Of a DNA stretch of 64,000 bases, positions 39,944 to 51,724 are shown in pieces. The notes below the pieces were generated by a model. It was not told the DNA's origin. It made no database searches and worked only from the letters and a program-made list of their open reading frames with translations. Source of the stretch: Burkholderia cenocepacia (GTDB taxonomy: Bacteria > Pseudomonadota > Gammaproteobacteria > Burkholderiales > Burkholderiaceae). Position numbers and translations under genes: made by a program. The DNA lies in assembly GCF_014211915.1 (NCBI RefSeq), contig NZ_CP060041.1, positions 62,001 through 126,000 of the forward strand, written 5' to 3'. The stretch's first letter is position 1; each line of letters starts with the position of its first letter.

Positions 39944-41416
39944 ATGCCGCTTACGCTGTCCCGAACCGAACTCGTTCGCACCGCCAACCTCATCGACGGC
40001 GCCTGGCGCGATGCGTTCGACGGCCGCCGCTTCGCCGTCACCGATCCCGCCACGCTCGAGACCGTTGCCCACGCACCCGACAGCGGCGCCGCCGACGCGC
40101 GCGCGGCAACCGACGCGGCGGCTCGCGCGCTGCCCGCGTGGCGTGCGACGCCCGCGCGCGAACGCGCCGCGATCCTGCGCGCCTGGCATGCGGCGATCGT
40201 CGCGCACACCGACGATCTCGCGAAGCTGATGTCGCGCGAACAGGGCAAGCCGCTTGCCGAAGCGCGCGGCGAAGTCGCGTACGGTGCGTCGTACGTGCTG
40301 TGGTTCGCGGAGGAAGCGACCCGCACGTACGGCGACCTGATCCCGCAGCAGCAGCGCGGCAAGCGGTTGAGCGCGGTGAAGGAGCCGATCGGCGTCGTCG
40401 CCGCGATCACGCCGTGGAATTTCCCGCTCGCGATGATCGCGCGCAAGATCGCACCCGCGCTCGCGGCCGGCTGCACGGTGGTCGCGAAGCCGGCGGAGGA
40501 CACGCCGCTGACCGCGCTCGCGCTCGCGTTGCTCGCGCAGGAAGCCGGCGTGCCGGCCGGTGTGCTGAACCTGATCACCGCGTCGCGCGAACGCGGCGTC
40601 GAAGCCGCGGCCGACTGGCTCGCCGACGGCCGCGTGCGCAAGATCACGTTCACCGGCTCGACGCCCGTCGGCAAGCTGCTCGCGCGCGAATCGGCGGCGA
40701 CGTTGAAGAAGCTGTCGCTGGAGCTCGGCGGCAATGCGCCGTTCATCGTGTTCGACGACGCCGAGCTCGACGCCGCGGTCGACGGGCTGATGGCCGCCAA
40801 GTTCCGCAACGGCGGGCAGACCTGCGTGTCGCCGAATCGCGTGTACGTGCAGGCCGGTGTCTACGACGCGTTCGCCGCGAAGCTCGCCGCGCGCGTCGCC
40901 GCGCTGAAGGTCGCGCCGGCGACCGACCCGGCCGCGCAGATCGGCCCGATGATCAACGCGCGCGCGGTCGACAAGATCGCGCGCCATGTCGGCGACGCCG
41001 TCGAACGCGGCGCGCGTGTGCTGACGGGCGGCAAGCGCCTGACCGAGCTCGGCGCGAACTACTACGCGCCGACGGTGCTCGCCGACGCCACCGCCGACAT
41101 GCAGCTGACCTGCGAGGAAACCTTCGGCCCGGTCGCCGCGCTGTTTCGCTTCGAGTCCGAGGACGAAGCGGTCGATGCCGCGAACGACACGCCGTTCGGG
41201 CTCGCCGCGTATTTCTACACGCAGGACGTGCGGCGCATCGCGCGCGTGTCGGCGCGGCTCGAAACGGGCATCGTCGGGATCAACGAAGGCGCGCTCGCGA
41301 GCGAGGCCGCGCCGTTCGGCGGCGTGAAGGAATCGGGCTACGGCCGCGAAGGTTCGCGCTATGGGCTCGACGATTATCTGTCGATCAAGTACCTGTGCCA
41401 GGGCGGGCTCGACTGA
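39944..41416 (+). CDS. gabD: NAD(P)-dependent succinate-semialdehyde dehydrogenase type aldehyde dehydrogenase
   Basis: 490 residues, the normal GabD length. The catalytic Cys is 294 (GGQTCVSPNR) and the Glu 260 (LELGGNAPF). ITPWNFPLAMIARKIAPALA is the cofactor-region motif, and PFGGVKESGYGREGS marks the C-terminus, ending CQGGLD. It converts succinate semialdehyde to succinate, feeding the TCA cycle. The start is the ATG at 39944; the open frame extends upstream but is not protein-like. Its last 22 coding bases plus stop recur exactly at 46582-46605, marking the left edge of a probable insertion (see findings). Confidence 0.92.
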   Translation: MPLTLSRTELVRTANLIDGAWRDAFDGRRFAVTDPATLETVAHAPDSGAADARAATDAAARALPAWRATPARERAAILRAWHAAIVAHTDDLAKLMSREQGKPLAEARGEVAYGASYVLWFAEEATRTYGDLIPQQQRGKRLSAVKEPIGVVAAITPWNFPLAMIARKIAPALAAGCTVVAKPAEDTPLTALALALLAQEAGVPAGVLNLITASRERGVEAAADWLADGRVRKITFTGSTPVGKLLARESAATLKKLSLELGGNAPFIVFDDAELDAAVDGLMAAKFRNGGQTCVSPNRVYVQAGVYDAFAAKLAARVAALKVAPATDPAAQIGPMINARAVDKIARHVGDAVERGARVLTGGKRLTELGANYYAPTVLADATADMQLTCEETFGPVAALFRFESEDEAVDAANDTPFGLAAYFYTQDVRRIARVSARLETGIVGINEGALASEAAPFGGVKESGYGREGSRYGLDDYLSIKYLCQGGLD

Positions 41417-41418
41417 AC
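41395..41418 (+). repeat. 24-bp direct repeat, left copy (3' end of the semialdehyde dehydrogenase gene)
   Basis: The 24 bases starting GTGCCAGGGCGG and ending GACTGAAC encode the end of gabD (CQGGLD and stop) plus two further bases. They recur exactly at 46582-46605. Likely boundary of an insertion. Confidence 0.75.
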
Positions 41419-41644
41419 CGGCGTCGCCGGACGTTCGATTTCCCGTTGTGTGCTCCGCTCCCGCTTGCGTGACTTGCGGGTTCGAGCGCGACGAAGCGAT
41501 CCGTGTGGGCGCCGTGCCGAATCATGCGTGCCCGGCACGCCGTCCGCGGCGCAATCGCGCCCGCAGCCCCGGGTAAAAACGCATTGCCAACGAGAAATTG
41601 TGTGCGCATTGTCGACGGACGCCTTGTCCATCGCCCCACTCGCC

Positions 41645-42655
41645 ATGCATCCCGCTCCATTGCCGTCCGCCGTATGCGTCGCCGACACCCCGCCCGACAC
41701 GCTGCCGTCGGTCCGGCGCTTCGCCAGCCAGGACGTGGATACCCACGCGGAGTGCACGCACGGCTGGTCGATCCGGCTCGATCAACTGTCGCCCGGACCG
41801 TTCCATGGAACGCTGCACGAAATCCGCTTCGACGGCATGCAATTGCTGCGCGAACGCGTCAATCGGGCGCTGCTCAAGCGCGGCAACCAGTGCGCCGGCA
41901 GAACGTCGTTCAGCATCCCGCTGGAAACCGCCGGCGCCGGCTTCTGCGGCGGCGCGCCGCTGCGCGACAAGGCATTGCTCGTCTCCGGCGGCACGTCGCT
42001 GCCGGAACTACGCACGCCCGACCATCAGGACGTCGTACTGCTGACGGTGCCCAGCGACACACTGCGCCAACTGGCGTGGCTTGGCGATCGGGACGAAGAC
42101 GGCGACGGCATGGCGTCGAGCGAAACCCGCATCCTGCGGATCCCCGCAGCACGCCATGATGCGCTGACGGCATTGCTGATGACCGGCTTCGGGGCGGCCG
42201 ATACGCCGGAGCGCCCGCTCGCGCGGCCGCACACGCGCAAGACGCTGCACGACGCCATTCTGGTCGAACTGGCGCACGCGATGGAAGCGGCCGACCGCCG
42301 CGTCCGGCTCGATCCGTCCGCTCGTCGCCGTGTGGTCGATCGCGTGCGCGAACTCGTCGTGTCGCGACCCGGTGTGCCGCTGACGGTGCTCGACGTATGC
42401 CGCGAAGTCGGCGCGAGCCGGCGCAAACTGCAGTATTGCTTCGAGGAAATTCTCGGCACGCATCCCGCGTGGTACCTGCGCGTGCTGCGGCTGAACGCGG
42501 TGCGCCGCGAACTGCGCGAACATTCCCCCGCCAGCGCGTCGGTCAGCGACGTCGCGTGCCGTTGGGGCTTCTGGCATCTGAGCCGGTTCGCGTCGCACTA
42601 TCGGGAACTGTTCGGCGAACTGCCGTCCGACACGCTCAAACGGCCCCCACGATAA
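41645..42655 (+). CDS. AraC-family regulator, EutR-like
   Basis: 336 residues from the ATG at 41645. The C-terminal double HTH reads PLTVLDVCREVGASRRKLQY and then VSDVACRWGFWHLSRFASHY. WYLRVLRLNAVRRELRE between them is typical of the EutR-like AraC branch. The N-terminal domain has the EutR-type pattern MQLLRERVNRALLKRGNQ. EutR activates ethanolamine genes, but no ethanolamine enzymes are here; the neighbours are an outer-membrane protein, an MFS carrier and an amidase. So the likely inducer is an amide or aromatic compound. The start is not certain; earlier alternative starts such as 41600 exist. Confidence 0.85.
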   Translation: MHPAPLPSAVCVADTPPDTLPSVRRFASQDVDTHAECTHGWSIRLDQLSPGPFHGTLHEIRFDGMQLLRERVNRALLKRGNQCAGRTSFSIPLETAGAGFCGGAPLRDKALLVSGGTSLPELRTPDHQDVVLLTVPSDTLRQLAWLGDRDEDGDGMASSETRILRIPAARHDALTALLMTGFGAADTPERPLARPHTRKTLHDAILVELAHAMEAADRRVRLDPSARRRVVDRVRELVVSRPGVPLTVLDVCREVGASRRKLQYCFEEILGTHPAWYLRVLRLNAVRRELREHSPASASVSDVACRWGFWHLSRFASHYRELFGELPSDTLKRPPR

Positions 42656-42699
42656 TTACCAAAAGCGGATAACGCCCCGGATTTTGACGTTCCTAGACT

Positions 42700-42722
42700 C
42701 CGTACACATTTCAACTGTACGG
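42700..42722. promoter_or_regulatory. Perfect inverted repeat upstream of the outer-membrane protein gene, candidate operator
   Basis: Arms CCGTACA (42700-42706) and TGTACGG (42716-42722) with a nine-base spacer; the repeat ends 11 bases before the ATG at 42734. A TTGACG box at 42684-42689 could be a -35. It may be an operator or a leader hairpin for the outer-membrane - MFS - amidase genes. Confidence 0.5.
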
Positions 42723-42733
42723 GGAACGGCTCG

Positions 42734-43672
42734 ATGGAAATCCTCAGACGTCCGCACGGCGCGCGGCGCTGCCGCACACGCTCCGCCGCCGTCGCGATCG
42801 GCGCATTGGCAGCCACGCTCGCCTGCACGCGCACCCAGGCACTCGAAAACGACGGACCGATCACGCCGTTCGGCGTATTCGATTTCGGCGCGGGCATCAT
42901 GCCCCCGCCCACGCCGAACGGCACGCTTGCCACACGCTTCGCGTACTACTCGACACGCACGATCCGCAACGGCGGCAACGCCGACTTCTCGCTGACGGTC
43001 GCGTCCTGGAGCGTCGCGTATATCCGGATGACGAACGCGAAACTGTTCGGTGCGAACGTCGGCTTCGGCGCGGTCGTGCCGTTCCTGAACCTGAACGGAC
43101 ACGTGAACGTGCCGACGCCCGCAGGCACGCTCGCGATGTCGGCCAATCCAACCAACATCGGCGATGCGGACTTCCAGCCGCTGATCCTTGCATGGACGCT
43201 GCCGAACCTGTTCGTCAACGTCGCGCTGCAGGTCCAGGCGCCGACGGGCGCGTATCGCGCCACGCGGCTCTTCAATCCCGGCGTCAACCACTGGACCTTC
43301 TCGCCGATCATCGGCGCGACATACATCACCGACGGCGGATTCGAAATCTCGACCAGCATCGAGATCGACCAGAACACGACCAACCGTGCAACGAATTATC
43401 GAAGCGGCACCGGGTTCCGCCAGGAATTCGCGCTCGGCCAGCACATCGGCCCGTTCACGGCGGGCCTGGGCGGCTACATCGAGCGTCAGTTGGGCAACGA
43501 CCACGGCCCGAATGTCGACGGCAACCGCGCGCGCGTGAATGCGCTAGGCCCGGCGATCAGCTACGTCGAGCCGGGCAAGCCCGCGATATGGCTGCATGCC
43601 TACAAGGAATTCGGTGCGCAAAACCACGCGCAGGGGTACCAGATCGCGCTACGTGCCGCGCTGTCGTTCTGA
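42734..43672 (+). CDS. SphA/Phenol_MetA-type outer-membrane beta-barrel protein
   Basis: 312 residues. A basic N-terminus (RRPHGARRCRTRS) and a hydrophobic stretch ending at TQALENDG give a signal peptide. The rest is built of alternating short strands (FGAVVPFLNLNGHVNV, VNVALQVQAPTGAY, YITDGGFEISTSIEIDQN). The C-terminal residue is Phe (RAALSF), a hallmark of outer-membrane barrels. The family is called phenol-degradation MetA or SphA and probably forms channels for hydrophobic or aromatic compounds. It starts 78 bases after the AraC gene and is followed 22 bases later by the MFS gene. Exact solute unknown. Confidence 0.82.
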   Translation: MEILRRPHGARRCRTRSAAVAIGALAATLACTRTQALENDGPITPFGVFDFGAGIMPPPTPNGTLATRFAYYSTRTIRNGGNADFSLTVASWSVAYIRMTNAKLFGANVGFGAVVPFLNLNGHVNVPTPAGTLAMSANPTNIGDADFQPLILAWTLPNLFVNVALQVQAPTGAYRATRLFNPGVNHWTFSPIIGATYITDGGFEISTSIEIDQNTTNRATNYRSGTGFRQEFALGQHIGPFTAGLGGYIERQLGNDHGPNVDGNRARVNALGPAISYVEPGKPAIWLHAYKEFGAQNHAQGYQIALRAALSF

Positions 43673-43694
43673 TGTTCCGATTCGGGAGCTGTCG

Positions 43695-44924
43695 ATGAAT
43701 CCGCTTGCTTCAACGCAAACCGCGCCCTGCATGCGTGCCGCCCGACAGGCCGGCGCGAGCCAGGGCACCGTGCTGCTGCTCGGCAGTAGTCTCACCGTGA
43801 TGGGCGCGGTGATGATCGCGCCAGTCCTGCCGAAACTCGCGGCCGAATTCGTGCCGGCCGACCCGCGGCTGGCCGCGCTCGTCCCGCTCGTCGCGACGGG
43901 CCCCGCCCTCGCAATCGCGCTGTGTGCGCCGCTCGCCGGCTGGCTGGCCGATCGCGTCGGACGCAAGATGCTGCTGTTGCTCGCGACGCTCGTGTACGGG
44001 CTCGTCGGCGCGGCGCCGGCGTGGCTCGACAGCCTCACCGCGATCCTCGTCTGCCGGTTCGCGCTCGGCGCAGCGGAAGCCTGCGTGATGACCTGCTGCA
44101 CGACGTTGATCGGCGACTATTGGCGCGGCGAACAACGGGTGCGCTACGTGAACCGGCAGGTCGTCACGATCGGTATCGTCGGCACGGCTTTTTTCGTGCT
44201 CGGCGGTGCGGCCGGCGAGCACGCGTGGCGCTATCCGTTCTATCTGTACCTGTTGCCGATCCTGCTCGTGCCGGCAATTGCGACCGTACTGTGGGAGCCG
44301 CTGCGCGACGATCAGCCAGCCGAGCCAGGCGACGGCGGCGCGCCGTCGGCCGGACACCGGCTCGCGCCGACGCTCGCGGTCGGCTACGGGCTGATCTGCA
44401 TCGGCATGATCAGTTCGTTCGTGGTGCCCGTGCAGATGCCGCAGCTGATGATCGACATCGGTCAGCGATCGTCGACGATGATCGGCGCGGTCGCGGGCAC
44501 CGGCCTGCTGTCGACGCTCGCCGGCTCGATCGCGTGGCCATGGTTGCGCGACGCGATCGGCCGCCGCTTCGTCAACGTCGTGCTACTTGCGCTGCTCGCG
44601 GTGGGGCTGACGCTGCTGGCCCGCGCGCATACGGTGCCGGCCATCGTCGTGGCGGTCGTGATTCACGGCTTCGGCGGCGGCATGCTGGTGCCCAATGCCA
44701 TCCTGCCGCTGATGCGCAGGCTGTCGCTCGCGATGCGTGGCCGCGGCCTGGGCGGTTTCACGGCCGCGCTCTATCTGGGCCAGTTCGTCAGCCCGCTCGT
44801 CGTGCTGGGCTGTGCTCAGGCCTTCGGCGGGCTGCGCGCGGCGGTGTTCGCGATTGCGTCGGGCACGGCCGTCACCGCGTTGTCGTGGTTGTTGCCGGCG
44901 CTTCGCCGCCGCGACGACGAATGA
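43695..44924 (+). CDS. MFS transporter, 12 membrane segments
   Basis: 409 residues from the ATG at 43695, 22 bases after the outer-membrane protein gene. The pattern PLAGWLADRVGRKMLLLLAT (loop 2-3 motif) is typical MFS. CRFALGAAEACVMTCCTTLI and WRDAIGRRFVNVVLLALLAV mark the two halves. There is no strong link to a drug-efflux subfamily. In the AraC - outer-membrane - MFS - amidase order it most likely imports (or exports) the amide-type substrate. Cys-Cys in the middle (CVMTCCTT) is unusual but not diagnostic. Confidence 0.85.
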   Translation: MNPLASTQTAPCMRAARQAGASQGTVLLLGSSLTVMGAVMIAPVLPKLAAEFVPADPRLAALVPLVATGPALAIALCAPLAGWLADRVGRKMLLLLATLVYGLVGAAPAWLDSLTAILVCRFALGAAEACVMTCCTTLIGDYWRGEQRVRYVNRQVVTIGIVGTAFFVLGGAAGEHAWRYPFYLYLLPILLVPAIATVLWEPLRDDQPAEPGDGGAPSAGHRLAPTLAVGYGLICIGMISSFVVPVQMPQLMIDIGQRSSTMIGAVAGTGLLSTLAGSIAWPWLRDAIGRRFVNVVLLALLAVGLTLLARAHTVPAIVVAVVIHGFGGGMLVPNAILPLMRRLSLAMRGRGLGGFTAALYLGQFVSPLVVLGCAQAFGGLRAAVFAIASGTAVTALSWLLPALRRRDDE

Positions 44925-44960
44925 CTCCTTCACGTTTTCCTGTTCCTGAACGATAGACCC

Positions 44961-46418
44961 ATGAACGATTTTCAGACGCTCATCGCCACGCACGACGGCA
45001 TCGCGCTCGCCGCGCTCGTCCGTGCGAAAGAAGTGAAGCCCGCCGAATTGCTGGACGCCGTGCTAGCCAGTCTCGATACGCTGAATCCCGCGCTGAATGC
45101 GGTGGCGGAACGACTCGACGACTCGGCAAGACAGGCCGCGTCGTCCGTCACCGGGCACGAAAGCGTGCTCGCCGGCGTCCCCACGCTGATCAAGGACCTG
45201 TTCATGCCGGTGCGCGGCGCACGCATGGCGAACGGATCGCTTGTGTTCGGCGATCATCGGCCGGACTTCGACGGCGAACTGGTGACGCGCCTGCGGCGCG
45301 CGGGCATACCGATCGCGGGAACGTCGTTGTCGCCGGAGCTGGGCACGTCGTATTGCACGTCGTCGGCGCGCTTCGGCACGACGCGCAACCCGTGGAATCC
45401 GCACGTCAGCGCAGGCGGTTCGAGCGGTGCGGCAGCCGCGCTCGTTGCCGCGCGCGTGCTGCCGTTCGCGCACGGCAACGACGGCGGCGGCTCGCTGCGG
45501 GTGCCCGCGTCCTGCTGCGGCGTGTTCGGCTTGAAGCCGACGCGCGGCCGAACGCCGAATGGCCCGATGATCGGCGAGGGATGGGCCGGCATGGGCATCA
45601 ACCATGCGATCACGCGTTCGGTTCGCGACAGCGCCGCGCTGCTCGACCTGACCGCGGGCGCGGATACCGGTGCGCCGTATGCGGCGCCGTGCCAGCCGGA
45701 CAGTTTTCTCGTGGCCACGCAGCGCGATCCCCGGCCGCTGAAAATCGCCGTGATCGAGCAGGCGCCGCCATGGCCGCTGCATCCGGCGTGCCGGGCCGCG
45801 CTGGACTATACCGTCGCGTTGCTGCGCTCGCTCGGACATGACGTCGAGCCGCTCGCCAGTCCCGTCGATTCGGCGGCGTTCTACGACCGCGTGTTTACGA
45901 TCATCGGCGCACAAACGCGCGCGCTGCTCGACATGATCGGCGATCAGCGCGGCGCGCCGGTGCGCGACGACGAAATCGAGGCCCGCACCCGCATCATCGT
46001 GCGCGAAAAGGGCGGCGTGAGCGGCGCGCGATATGCGGGTGCGGTCGACTGGATCCACGCATTGGGCAGGACGTTCGGCCAGTTGATGGAGCGCTACGAC
46101 GTGTTGCTGACGCCGACGCTCGCGATGCCGCCGCTGCCGCCGGCGTCGCTCGCGACGGTGGACGACGCGCAATCGTTGAGCGAAGTCATCGATCGATCGC
46201 ACCGGTTTTCGCCCTTCACCGCGTGGTTCAACGCGACCGGCCAACCCGCGATGTCGGTGCCGCTTTACTGGGACGAGCAAGGTCTGCCGATCGGTAGCCA
46301 TTTCGCGGCGGCATTCGGCGCGGAATCGCTGCTGTTCTCGCTCGCCGCCCAGCTCGAACGCGCCGCGCCGTGGGCCGATCGAACCCCGCCGGTGTGCGTC
46401 GGGCTGTCGGGTGCGTGA
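44961..46418 (+). CDS. Amidase (amidase-signature family)
   Basis: 485 residues. The Ser-cisSer-Lys triad is visible: Lys78 in GVPTLIKDLF, the cis-Ser in AGGSSGAAAA (Ser154), and the nucleophile Ser178 in HGNDGGGSLRVPAS, 24 residues apart as in the family. Family members hydrolyse aliphatic or aromatic amides, or act on amide-linked metabolites. No signal peptide, so cytosolic. It follows the MFS gene by 36 bases. As the last gene of the module (41.6-46.4 kb) it probably provides the first catabolic step, releasing ammonia or an acid. Confidence 0.92.
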   Translation: MNDFQTLIATHDGIALAALVRAKEVKPAELLDAVLASLDTLNPALNAVAERLDDSARQAASSVTGHESVLAGVPTLIKDLFMPVRGARMANGSLVFGDHRPDFDGELVTRLRRAGIPIAGTSLSPELGTSYCTSSARFGTTRNPWNPHVSAGGSSGAAAALVAARVLPFAHGNDGGGSLRVPASCCGVFGLKPTRGRTPNGPMIGEGWAGMGINHAITRSVRDSAALLDLTAGADTGAPYAAPCQPDSFLVATQRDPRPLKIAVIEQAPPWPLHPACRAALDYTVALLRSLGHDVEPLASPVDSAAFYDRVFTIIGAQTRALLDMIGDQRGAPVRDDEIEARTRIIVREKGGVSGARYAGAVDWIHALGRTFGQLMERYDVLLTPTLAMPPLPPASLATVDDAQSLSEVIDRSHRFSPFTAWFNATGQPAMSVPLYWDEQGLPIGSHFAAAFGAESLLFSLAAQLERAAPWADRTPPVCVGLSGA

Positions 46419-46581
46419 CCGGTCCGGTGGCGGGCGACGGGATGCGCGGCACCGCGTTGATCGTCGCGGGCCGCGCGTGCCACGAGCATCGGCGTGCGGC
46501 GCAGCCGGTGCGCCAGCCGTGCGACGCGACGAACGGCGAACACGCTACCGCCCCACTGCGGCTGCGGCCATACCGGAATCC

Positions 46582-46605
46582 GTGCCAGGGCGGGCTCGAC
46601 TGAAC
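46582..46605 (+). repeat. 24-bp direct repeat, right copy (relic of the dehydrogenase gene end)
   Basis: Identical to 41395-41418 and still reads CQGGLD-stop in frame, but the preceding sequence is not dehydrogenase. It lies 11 bases before a hairpin, as expected if the original gene and its terminator used to be continuous here. Confidence 0.75.
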
Positions 46606-46616
46606 GGATGAATCCG

Positions 46617-46636
46617 GGCCGTCCGCGAGGACGGCC
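46617..46636 (+). terminator. Hairpin with GCGA tetraloop, probable original terminator of the dehydrogenase gene
   Basis: Perfect arms GGCCGTCC (46617-46624) / GGACGGCC (46629-46636) with loop GCGA; the distance from the relic stop codon is 14 bases. It now ends transcripts of the amidase module. No T-run follows. Confidence 0.5.
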
Positions 46637-46664
46637 GTCGCCGTGCCCGGTCAAGCCATGCACG

Positions 46665-46694
46665 TTGACATCGGAACCGATCGGTCCATATAAT
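46665..46694 (+). promoter_or_regulatory. Consensus sigma-70 promoter with an overlapping operator for the TetR gene
   Basis: TTGACA (46665-46670), an 18-base spacer and TATAAT (46689-46694) are both perfect consensus boxes. Inside the spacer is GGAACCGATCGGTCCA (46673-46688), a near-palindrome around ACCGATCGGT that resembles the operator at 47350-47365. A strong promoter blocked by its own repressor is the obvious reading. Confidence 0.75.
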
Positions 46695-46735
46695 GAATCC
46701 CACTTCAGGCACCGCATCGTTTGCGAAACCGATCA

Positions 46736-47332
46736 ATGGCAAATCCGGCTGGCGTGGGCCGTCCGCGCGAATTCGAACTGGGCGATGCCGCGCGCGACGC
46801 GATGGAGGTTTTCTGGGATCGCGGCTATGAAGGCGCGTCCCTGCCCGACCTGATCGCCGGCACCGGCCTGTCGCGCGGCAGTCTCTACAAGGCATTCGGC
46901 GACAAGAAGGCGCTGCTGCTGGCGGCGCTCGACCTGTACATGGCCGACGGGCTCAAGGCGACCGCCGACATCCTGTCGCAACCCGGCCCCGTGAAGGACG
47001 CGATTCGCGACTCGCTGCTGCGCTACGCCCGGCTGTCCGTTGGCGAGGCCGGCCGGCGCGGCTGTCTCGCGGTCGCGATGACCACCGAGCTGGCCGCGCG
47101 CGACGCCGATGTCGCGGAACGCACCGGGCGCATGTTCCGGCGCCTGCAGCAGCTCTATGCGGGCGCGATCGTCCGCGGCCAGGCGAGCGGCGAGATCGCC
47201 GAGCAGGACGAACAGGTGCTGGCGCGTTTGCTCGTCTGCCAGGTCGAGGGCATGCGCGTGCTGGGGAAAACCGGCGTCCCCGAGCACGACATGCTCGCGC
47301 TGGTCGACCGCACGATGCGCATCCTCGACTGA
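46736..47332 (+). CDS. TetR-family transcriptional repressor
   Basis: 198 residues. The N-terminal HTH spans AGVGRPREFELGDAARDAME and LIAGTGLSRGSLYKAFGDKK, the classic TetR motif. The C-terminal domain (RRGCLAVAMTTELAARDADV, QVEGMRVLGKTG) matches TetR members that control MFS efflux pumps. The start is the ATG at 46736. It ends 49 bases before a DHA2-type MFS gene, and matching 16-base operators lie in front of both genes. It therefore almost certainly represses itself and the pump, being released by a toxic compound. Confidence 0.92.
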   Translation: MANPAGVGRPREFELGDAARDAMEVFWDRGYEGASLPDLIAGTGLSRGSLYKAFGDKKALLLAALDLYMADGLKATADILSQPGPVKDAIRDSLLRYARLSVGEAGRRGCLAVAMTTELAARDADVAERTGRMFRRLQQLYAGAIVRGQASGEIAEQDEQVLARLLVCQVEGMRVLGKTGVPEHDMLALVDRTMRILD

Positions 47333-47349
47333 TATTTTTTACCCAATTT

Positions 47350-47365
47350 GGAACCGAATGGTTCC
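47350..47365. promoter_or_regulatory. TetR operator in front of the MFS efflux gene
   Basis: Perfect inverted repeat GGAACC-GAAT-GGTTCC. It shares GGAACCGA..GGT with the operator at 46673-46688. It ends 16 bases before the MFS start codon. Confidence 0.65.
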
Positions 47366-47381
47366 GTATGGAGAACCGTCC

Positions 47382-48863
47382 ATGTCACGGAATGACCCCG
47401 TATCACCCGACCCGCGTCGCTGGGCCATGTTTTCGGTCCTGCTCGTCGGCGCGTTCCTGCCGCCGCTGGATTTCTTCATCGTCAATGTCGCGCTGCCGTC
47501 GATTCGCGCGGAACTGGGCGCCTCGTCGTCGGCCGAGCAACTCGTCATTTCGTCGTATGCGGGCCTGTACGCGGTGACGCTGATCACCGGCGGACGATTG
47601 GGCGACCTGTTCGGCCGCGGGCGCGTATTTTTCCTCGGCTTGATCGGCTTTGCGATCGCCTCGACGCTGTGCGGCCTCGCGAGTTCGCCGTGGACGCTCA
47701 TCGTCGGCCGCGCGTTGCAGGGCGTGACGGCCGCGATCATGGCGCCGCAGGCGCTCGCGTCGATCCAGGCGATCTTCCCCGAATCGGAAAAGCCGCTCGC
47801 GCTCAGCCTGTACGGCGCGGTGTTCGGCCTCGCCGCCGTGGTCGGGCAGGCGCTGGGCGGGATCCTGATCTCGCTGAATCTGTTGAACCTGGGCTGGCGC
47901 ACGATCTTTCTCGTCAACCTGCCGCTGGCGATTCTGGTCGTCCTGTTCGGGATTCCGCTGCTGAAGGAAACGCGTGCACAGCATGCGCGCAAGCTCGACC
48001 TCGGCGGCACCGCGCTGTCGATGCTGACGCTGGGCGCGCTGATCGTGCCGCTGATCGAAGGGCGCGAAGCGGGCTGGCCGGCATGGGCATGGGCGTCGCT
48101 GCTCGCGGTGCCGGCCCTCGCGTGGTGCTTCTGGCGCTACGAGCGCCGGCTGGGCGGCCGCGGCGGCGCACCGCTGCTCGACCCGACCGCGCTCCGAGCC
48201 CCGGGGCTGGGCCGAGCGTTGCTGATCGCGCTGCTGCTGTACTCGATCGGCACGTTTTTCCTGCTGTTCTCGGTGTATCTGCAGAATGCATTGCACGTCG
48301 ACGCGCTGAGCGCGGGCCTCGTGTTCCTGCCGTTCGGCGTGGGGTTCCTGCTCGGGCCGCTGTCGACGCCTGTCTGCTCGCGTGTCATCGGCGCTTACGT
48401 CAATCCGTTCGGCATGAGCCTGGAGATCGTCGGGCTCGTCGGCCTCGCATGGTTGATCGACGTCACGCCGGTCGGGATGCCGCTCGCTGCCGTGCCGCTC
48501 GCCGCCGTTCTCTTCGTCATCGGTTTCGGACAAGGCCTCGCGCTGCCAACCCTGATGCGCATGGTGACGGGACGCGTCGCACCGGCGCTGTCCGGCATGA
48601 TCGCCGGCATCGTCAGCTCGACGCTGCAGGTGAGCACGTCGCTCAGCGTGGCGATCATCGGCGGTATTTTCTATACGGTGCTCGGCACGCGCCAGGACCC
48701 GGCGGCCATCGCGCATGCGTTCATCGTCGCACTCCTGTCGATCTCGTCGTTCCTCGCCATCGGCGCCGCGCTGGGCCTCTCGCTCGCTCGTGCACCCGCC
48801 GCGCCCACCTCGCTGCCGGCCGCTGCCCGGCCGACCTTCGGCCCGGCGCGCAAACGGCCGTGA
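47382..48863 (+). CDS. MFS efflux transporter, DHA2 (14-segment) family
   Basis: 493 residues from the ATG at 47382, just after the operator. The first helix and loop contain PPLDFFIVNVALPSIRAELG, the DHA2 pattern (D-x-x-x-V-N-V-A-L-P). GGRLGDLFGRGRVFFLGLIG and GRALQGVTAAIMAPQALASI follow. About 14 membrane segments are predicted. DHA2 pumps export drugs, dyes or organic solvents with protons. Paired with the TetR gene upstream, it is likely an inducible resistance pump. The EthD-like gene 70 bases later may or may not belong to the same unit. Confidence 0.9.
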   Translation: MSRNDPVSPDPRRWAMFSVLLVGAFLPPLDFFIVNVALPSIRAELGASSSAEQLVISSYAGLYAVTLITGGRLGDLFGRGRVFFLGLIGFAIASTLCGLASSPWTLIVGRALQGVTAAIMAPQALASIQAIFPESEKPLALSLYGAVFGLAAVVGQALGGILISLNLLNLGWRTIFLVNLPLAILVVLFGIPLLKETRAQHARKLDLGGTALSMLTLGALIVPLIEGREAGWPAWAWASLLAVPALAWCFWRYERRLGGRGGAPLLDPTALRAPGLGRALLIALLLYSIGTFFLLFSVYLQNALHVDALSAGLVFLPFGVGFLLGPLSTPVCSRVIGAYVNPFGMSLEIVGLVGLAWLIDVTPVGMPLAAVPLAAVLFVIGFGQGLALPTLMRMVTGRVAPALSGMIAGIVSSTLQVSTSLSVAIIGGIFYTVLGTRQDPAAIAHAFIVALLSISSFLAIGAALGLSLARAPAAPTSLPAAARPTFGPARKRP

Positions 48864-48933
48864 TCGCCCGTCATCGCCAGTCGTCTCCCGTATCGACATT
48901 GGCCGCCGTAGCAGTCCGACCTGGAGGTCCTTC

Positions 48934-51618: not shown

Positions 51619-51724
51619 GCGCCCGGATGCGACGCTGCCGTAGCAGGGTGTCGCGCCGGCCACTCGCCGCGTGGCGCATCCGTTGCGCAGGCCTCGCACC
51701 GCGACCTGACGTCGTGCGAATGCC

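Follow-up and report, generated by a model that had tools for sequence, protein, structure and literature searches.

An amidase module bracketed by copies of the gabD 3' end in Burkholderia cenocepacia, and the empty, filled and decayed states of its site in close relatives

Small operons for catabolism are passed among Burkholderia replicons and on to other genera; it is seldom possible to see how those that lack mobility genes land. A stretch of 64,000 nucleotides from Burkholderia cenocepacia (assembly GCF_014211915.1, contig NZ_CP060041.1, positions 62,001 to 126,000 of the forward strand; hereafter the window) raises the question of how such an operon came to lie behind gabD, a succinate-semialdehyde dehydrogenase-like (SSADH-like) gene, with an exact copy of the gabD end on its far side. 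No report on this gabD–amidase locus was found in the literature searched. In this study, the locus was compared with its counterparts in 65 genomes of the genus and with module copies elsewhere. Its features are as follows.

39944–41416, + strand: gabD, SSADH-like, the target and likely anchor (Pfam Aldedh; start inferred by homology)
41395–41418, + strand: left copy of the 24-bp repeat, formed by the gabD end and stop plus two bases
41417–41641, + strand: left spacer, the first ~150 bp of which are found only in genomes carrying the module and in G081, a remnant site
41642–42655, + strand: AraC-type regulator (Pfam HTH_18; start fitted to a 335-aa plasmid relative)
42734–43672, + strand: outer-membrane transporter of the Phenol_MetA_deg family, below called the porin (Pfam E = 6e-54)
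43695–44924, + strand: MFS transporter (Pfam MFS_1; start inferred)
44961–46418, + strand: amidase-signature hydrolase (Pfam Amidase)
46419–46581, + strand: right spacer, in the window genome and B. anthina (G020) only, its first ~40 bp also in Burkholderia sp. MS389 (G021)
46582–46605, + strand: right copy of the 24-bp repeat, interpreted as what is left of an old gabD end
46617–46636, + strand: GC hairpin, which sits straight behind gabD in empty sites
46665–46694, + strand: candidate sigma-70-like promoter, TTGACA-18-TATAAT, a consensus match only, in the native right flank
46736–47332, + strand: TetR-family regulator of the native right flank (Pfam TetR_N), straight after gabD in empty sites

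The AraC, Phenol_MetA_deg, MFS and amidase genes all lie between gabD and the TetR gene and share the strand of gabD. The gabD protein scores slightly below the cut-off of the NCBIfam SSADH model (638.6 bits against 646.35), and the best NCBIfam model for the AraC regulator is EutR, at 183 bits, below its cut-off of 319. Among the models shown, no cut-off is reached by the AraC, MFS or amidase proteins (for the amidase, the best 25 of 26 amidase models), and the porin has no model at all. Upstream of gabD are an AsnC-type regulator and a class III aminotransferase that passes the cut-off of NCBIfam PRK05965 and does not reach that of the GABA transaminase model, so that gabT is used here as a loose name. 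The candidate promoter matches the consensus at 12 of 12 positions and holds a short palindrome, ACCGATCGGT, between its boxes, which is possibly the TetR gene's own operator. Ten ORFs between 36.8 and 48.9 kb (the four of the module and six neighbours) were searched by Pfam domains; neither a recombinase nor a transposase is among them, all having other domains. The initial annotation had likewise seen no integrase. In addition, there is no tRNA in the 64-kb window, and no inverted repeat pairs the two insert ends among the 25 longest of 119.

The repeat itself, GTGCCAGGGCGGGCTCGACTGAAC, is exact at 41395–41418 and 46582–46605; of its 24 bases, the first 22 form the gabD end, stop included. 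The repeat search confirmed the earlier claim that the gabD 3' end recurs exactly on the far side of the module and brackets it. The pair is the sole exact direct repeat of at least 20 bp on the + strand of the window. By length alone it is only moderately above chance, the longest exact repeats in 20 order-3 Markov sequences of window length being 17–22 bp; it is the position of the repeat, and not its length, that confirms the observation as real. With at most one mismatch, the 22-mer occurs at 35 places in 32 of the 65 genomes; gabD ends account for 33 of these places, and the remaining two are the right-hand copies of the window genome and B. anthina. Just 22 of 44 gabD ends keep the 22-mer exactly.

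These 44 gabD ends stem from a survey at an identity of at least 84%, which returned sites in 43 of the 65 genomes; all were compared over the 9.7–16 kb downstream of each. Three sites are filled (the window, B. anthina and Burkholderia sp. MS389), and one, G081, is a remnant with the same left spacer and just the start of the AraC gene. Four sites are empty (G003, G023, G063 on contig C3, and G076), with gabD running directly into the hairpin–TetR stretch. Two more are partly empty: G013 keeps only the junction and the TetR promoter, and G018 keeps the first part of the junction, followed by a jump to 49229. The remaining 34 have other DNA behind gabD. No native junction sequence present in the four empty sites is missing from the filled site. 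The initial annotation had proposed that the module was inserted at the end of gabD, copying that end, and had predicted an empty site in which gabD leads straight into the hairpin and the TetR gene; the four empty sites have this form and, together with the right-hand repeat, support the insertion. Of the two findings named there as contrary, a lack of empty sites in relatives did not hold, and neither did a repeat that is mostly absent, because the right-hand copy is found in two of the three filled sites (the window and B. anthina), and in the third, Burkholderia sp. MS389, the stretch from ~46454 to ~46625 is absent, right repeat included.

Taken over all 44 sites, 18 context groups can be distinguished downstream of gabD, with gabD complete and the gabD and gabT side conserved. 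This variety first suggested an attachment-site hotspot at gabD, an idea that was rejected because none of the other 42 sites has a second copy of the gabD end (at most four mismatches) within its 9.7–16 kb downstream. Farther along the right flank, at 51620–51703, the window holds ~80 bases where seven relatives hold 2.2–8.9 kb, including a common ~2-kb block; judged by this comparison, the short stretch is probably a loss in the window genome. Furthermore, the TetR–MFS pair (46606–48866) is also found elsewhere in G079 and G017 at 90–92% identity, so that this pair is itself mobile.

The hairpin behind the right copy has a perfect 8-bp stem with a GCGA loop, as described initially, and the fold of 46600–46665 has z = −2.3. 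This picture needs qualifying, since the left copy too has a small 5-bp hairpin behind it, in DNA whose fold is not better than that of its shuffled versions (z = +1.5). No T-run is seen after the right hairpin, nor did the terminator scan report it, so that it is a candidate terminator and the name terminator is unproven. Folding of the 36 bases behind gabD gave a 7-bp stem in two empty sites, G003 and G023; the stems of G063, G076, G013 and G018 are different or weaker (weak in G076), and the B. anthina version of the right stem has mismatches; the hairpin is native to the gabD–TetR junction, yet not strictly conserved.

Weak matches to the module occur in all 65 genomes, as expected for common gene families. 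Apart from the three gabD sites, long matches are found in five places, namely contig C4 of the window genome, G011, G063 contig C4, G077 contig C2 and B. dolosa LMG 18943 (G064); G028 holds an AraC fragment only. Module homology extends at most over ~41567–46410. The 24-mer (at most six mismatches) is absent from these five loci and from that of G028, and the 22-mer (at most four mismatches) from the loci in Trinickia, Paraburkholderia, B. dolosa, Azospirillum, a distant Acidobacteria MAG and the B. cenocepacia HI2424 plasmid. At no other locus checked does the module come straight after gabD; that of Trinickia (L115) has a gabD-like fragment (57%) ~2.5 kb beyond the amidase. Since these relatives are not behind gabD and lack the repeat where checked, the repeat belongs to the target site.

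The second copy in the window genome, at 7105–11803 of contig C4 (160 kb; L087), is 81–87% identical to the module, and its flanks and those of the copies in G063 contig C4, a B. cepacia plasmid, and G077 are 98–99% identical. In the plasmid search, nine of 219 matching records cover at least 80% of the query; these nine are plasmids of B. cenocepacia, B. ambifaria, B. dolosa and B. cepacia with the module at 85% identity, and the plasmid copies have one common context. On G063 contig C4 (210 kb), a second aminotransferase–AsnC–gabD set (L096) lies ~50 kb from the module copy. A donor context for the spacers (41417–41640 and 46411–46605) was not found among the matches listed for the 65 genomes, where the strong ones are the carriers and G081, plus part of the AraC leader in G028, and the many others listed are short and at chance level; the left spacer matches strongly solely in G081, Burkholderia sp. 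MS389 and B. anthina. A search of the 65 genomes with the flank on the amidase side of the G011 copy gave no clean empty site among the four of 20 returned loci that were compared, which aligned only to the module edge. The module is read as a mobile amide-catabolism operon captured behind gabD.

The explanation favoured here, with somewhat more confidence than doubt, is that recombination, likely anchored in gabD, inserted the module between the gabD stop and the hairpin in the ancestry of a small Burkholderia clade, the second copy being the old gabD end. The incoming DNA would have consisted of a gabD 3' end followed by the module; its gabD end would have aligned with the resident copy on the left, and on the right a join, or the crossover of a circle, would have fallen inside the final 22 bp of the resident gene. 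The product would be a complete gabD, then the module, then a stump of 22–24 bp ahead of the old gabD hairpin, which the amidase transcript would now enter. No integrase would be needed, and such an insertion would account for the intact gabD, the stump and the lack of mobility genes. We infer this mechanism from what is observed, namely the repeat, the four empty sites and the repeat-free relatives of the module.

In favour of anchored insertion are the exact repeat of the end of the target gene, with a second copy in two filled genomes only, the empty junctions, compared with which the filled site has lost nothing native, the five module relatives and the AraC fragment of G028, all repeat-free, and the absence of a recombinase from the ten ORFs searched. 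The contrast between a conserved gabD/gabT side and 18 downstream contexts is as expected of an anchor, and anchored insertion has been documented before (PMC3240628; PMC5361080). Against it, no donor was found in which gabD is followed by the left spacer and module, and microhomology at the junction is not demonstrable without one. Products of homology-facilitated illegitimate recombination (HFIR) usually lose recipient DNA of similar size (PMC3240628), and none was lost here. In addition, the empty G003 and G018 group with the carriers in the gabD tree, and the right copy is better preserved than a dead stump should be.

This last point arises from the divergence between the window and B. 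anthina. Base differences amount to 9.8% in the AraC gene, 7.2% in the porin, 7.7% in the MFS gene and 9.1% in the amidase, against 4.0% in gabD, 6.6% in TetR and 6.3% in the second MFS gene; at four-fold sites the values are 15–21% for the module, 9% for gabD and 11–17% for the right side. The divergence of the module is thus about equal to or slightly above that of the right flank, which fits an old insertion over recent interspecies spread. The right copy is identical at 22 of 22 positions, beside a right spacer with 39 substitutions in 155 sites and a stretch up to the TetR gene with 15 in 117. The chance of no change in 22 sites at these neighbouring rates is ~0.002 to 0.05 by post hoc arithmetic. 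The unchanged block spans 46573–46603, that is, the right repeat and the 9 bp ahead of it, and the rest of the spacer is ~25% diverged. Gene conversion, constraint or luck would explain the identity of the right copy.

One alternative, judged rather unlikely, places the insertion before the split of the clade and regards the emptiness of G003 and G018 as secondary, through precise excision by recombination between the 22-bp copies. It was weighed with trees of gabT–gabD (all 44 sites and a 14-site subset), of TetR–MFS (nine rows) and of the rpoB and gyrB regions of 13 genomes picked from the 65. The empty state is most likely ancestral: in the 44-site tree, the empty G013, G023 and G076 form the sister group (0.97), a join left open in the 14-site tree. 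However, G003 and G018, though empty, fall with the carriers in a six-species set (98/96 in the 14-site tree), as secondary loss would have it, and the repeats remain exact. Holding the window, B. anthina and Burkholderia sp. MS389 together is rejected upstream (p-AU 0.028) and borderline downstream (p-AU 0.050), which also speaks for loss, whereas with G081 added as the fourth carrier, the upstream data do not reject the grouping (p-AU 0.17). Shared derived sites conflict on both sides of the insert, as interspecies recombination would give. Support for the six-species set comes from the rpoB region; in the tree of the gyrB region the set is not recovered, G081 and G018 being placed elsewhere with low support. 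Inside the set, the rpoB, gyrB, gabT–gabD and TetR–MFS trees and the site patterns disagree. Secondary loss also leaves the origin of the repeat unexplained. Precise excision and allele sorting by recombination would both fit the empty G003 and G018. A more speculative extension, considered rather improbable, is that the 22-bp repeats would allow the amidase module to come and go as a reversible cassette: a single capture behind the aminotransferase–gabD operon, residence before the old hairpin, and precise shedding in the G003 and G018 lineages without a recombinase, the right copy being kept identical to the gabD end by gene conversion or selection.

A comparably doubtful proposal is insertion by a site-specific recombinase, with 22 bp of the gabD end serving as attachment core and the recombinase gene since lost or acting in trans. 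The exact direct repeats, the gene end restored on the left and a pure insertion with no native loss are what it would leave, but no recombinase is present in the ten ORFs, no second gabD-end copy at the other 42 gabD sites (9.7–16 kb downstream), no 22-mer with the module copies elsewhere and no tRNA in the whole window. Although an integrase core would give a similar sequence, the other supporting features are missing. A transposon-like insertion with a target-site duplication of 22–24 bp, a length unusual for transposons, would make the direct repeat part of the target, single in empty sites; it was rejected as very improbable, there being no transposase among the ORFs searched and no inverted repeat pairing the insert ends among the 25 longest of 119, and the copies elsewhere neither beginning nor ending with the repeat.

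What the module genes would do can be predicted from their families. The amidase aligns over residues 11–478 of its 485 with the 6-aminohexanoate cyclic dimer hydrolase NylA, and the positions of the KD, GGSSG and GGGS/AAGS motifs, which hold the catalytic residues of the family, coincide. NylA is its closest solved relative (PDB 3a2p, E = 2.4e-79; the next different enzyme among solved structures has E = 4.9e-38), a member of the same amidase-signature family but a distant relative only; it acts on the 6-aminohexanoate cyclic dimer (PMC5408104). In the predicted division of labour, the AraC regulator would sense an amide or lactam, the porin and the MFS transporter would import it, and the amidase would hydrolyse it. 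The adjoining aminotransferase and semialdehyde dehydrogenase could take up an omega-amino acid product of the amidase; this link is only a suggestion, as the other module copies are not beside such genes.

Gene capture of this kind is ordinary; the scar, a duplicated end of the neighbouring gene gabD, is unusual, and the example is unusually clean: among close relatives the one site is seen empty, filled, decayed and in part deleted. The locus lends itself to testing how genes may be captured at operon ends without a recombinase. It also sets an amide hydrolase in possible connection with the aminotransferase–semialdehyde dehydrogenase pair beside its landing site.

Several known systems resemble this locus in part. 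Integrase-type genomic islands insert at gene 3' ends between direct repeats and leave the gene complete. The initial annotation had likened the module to such islands; the repeats of the gene end and the complete gene are indeed alike, but the recombinase (ten ORFs), the tRNA (window) and the sibling inserts (42 sites) are absent, and the likeness is formal only. The B. cenocepacia HI2424 plasmid NC_008545 has the same four genes in the same order at 85% DNA identity; however, they are flanked by glycosyl hydrolase and fumarylacetoacetate hydrolase genes, not by gabD, and the 18.8 kb checked contain no 22-mer. HFIR, described for Acinetobacter baylyi, Streptococcus pneumoniae and Pseudomonas stutzeri, is alike in that foreign DNA enters beside a stretch common with the recipient without an integrase (PMC3240628). 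Its products usually show a loss of recipient DNA of similar size, about 1 kb on average, and microhomology of 3–10 bp at the other junction, both usual rather than universal there (PMC3240628). Here gabD lies intact on the left as a candidate anchor, in which donor-derived bases are not assignable without a donor; in contrast to the usual HFIR products, the window locus gained 5.2 kb and misses nothing native. The displaced effector–immunity modules of Vibrio cholerae (PMC5361080) likewise have a module behind a conserved anchor and a piece of the old locus downstream; there a whole immunity gene is left and the effector displaced, whereas here 22–24 bp of the anchor remain and nothing was displaced.
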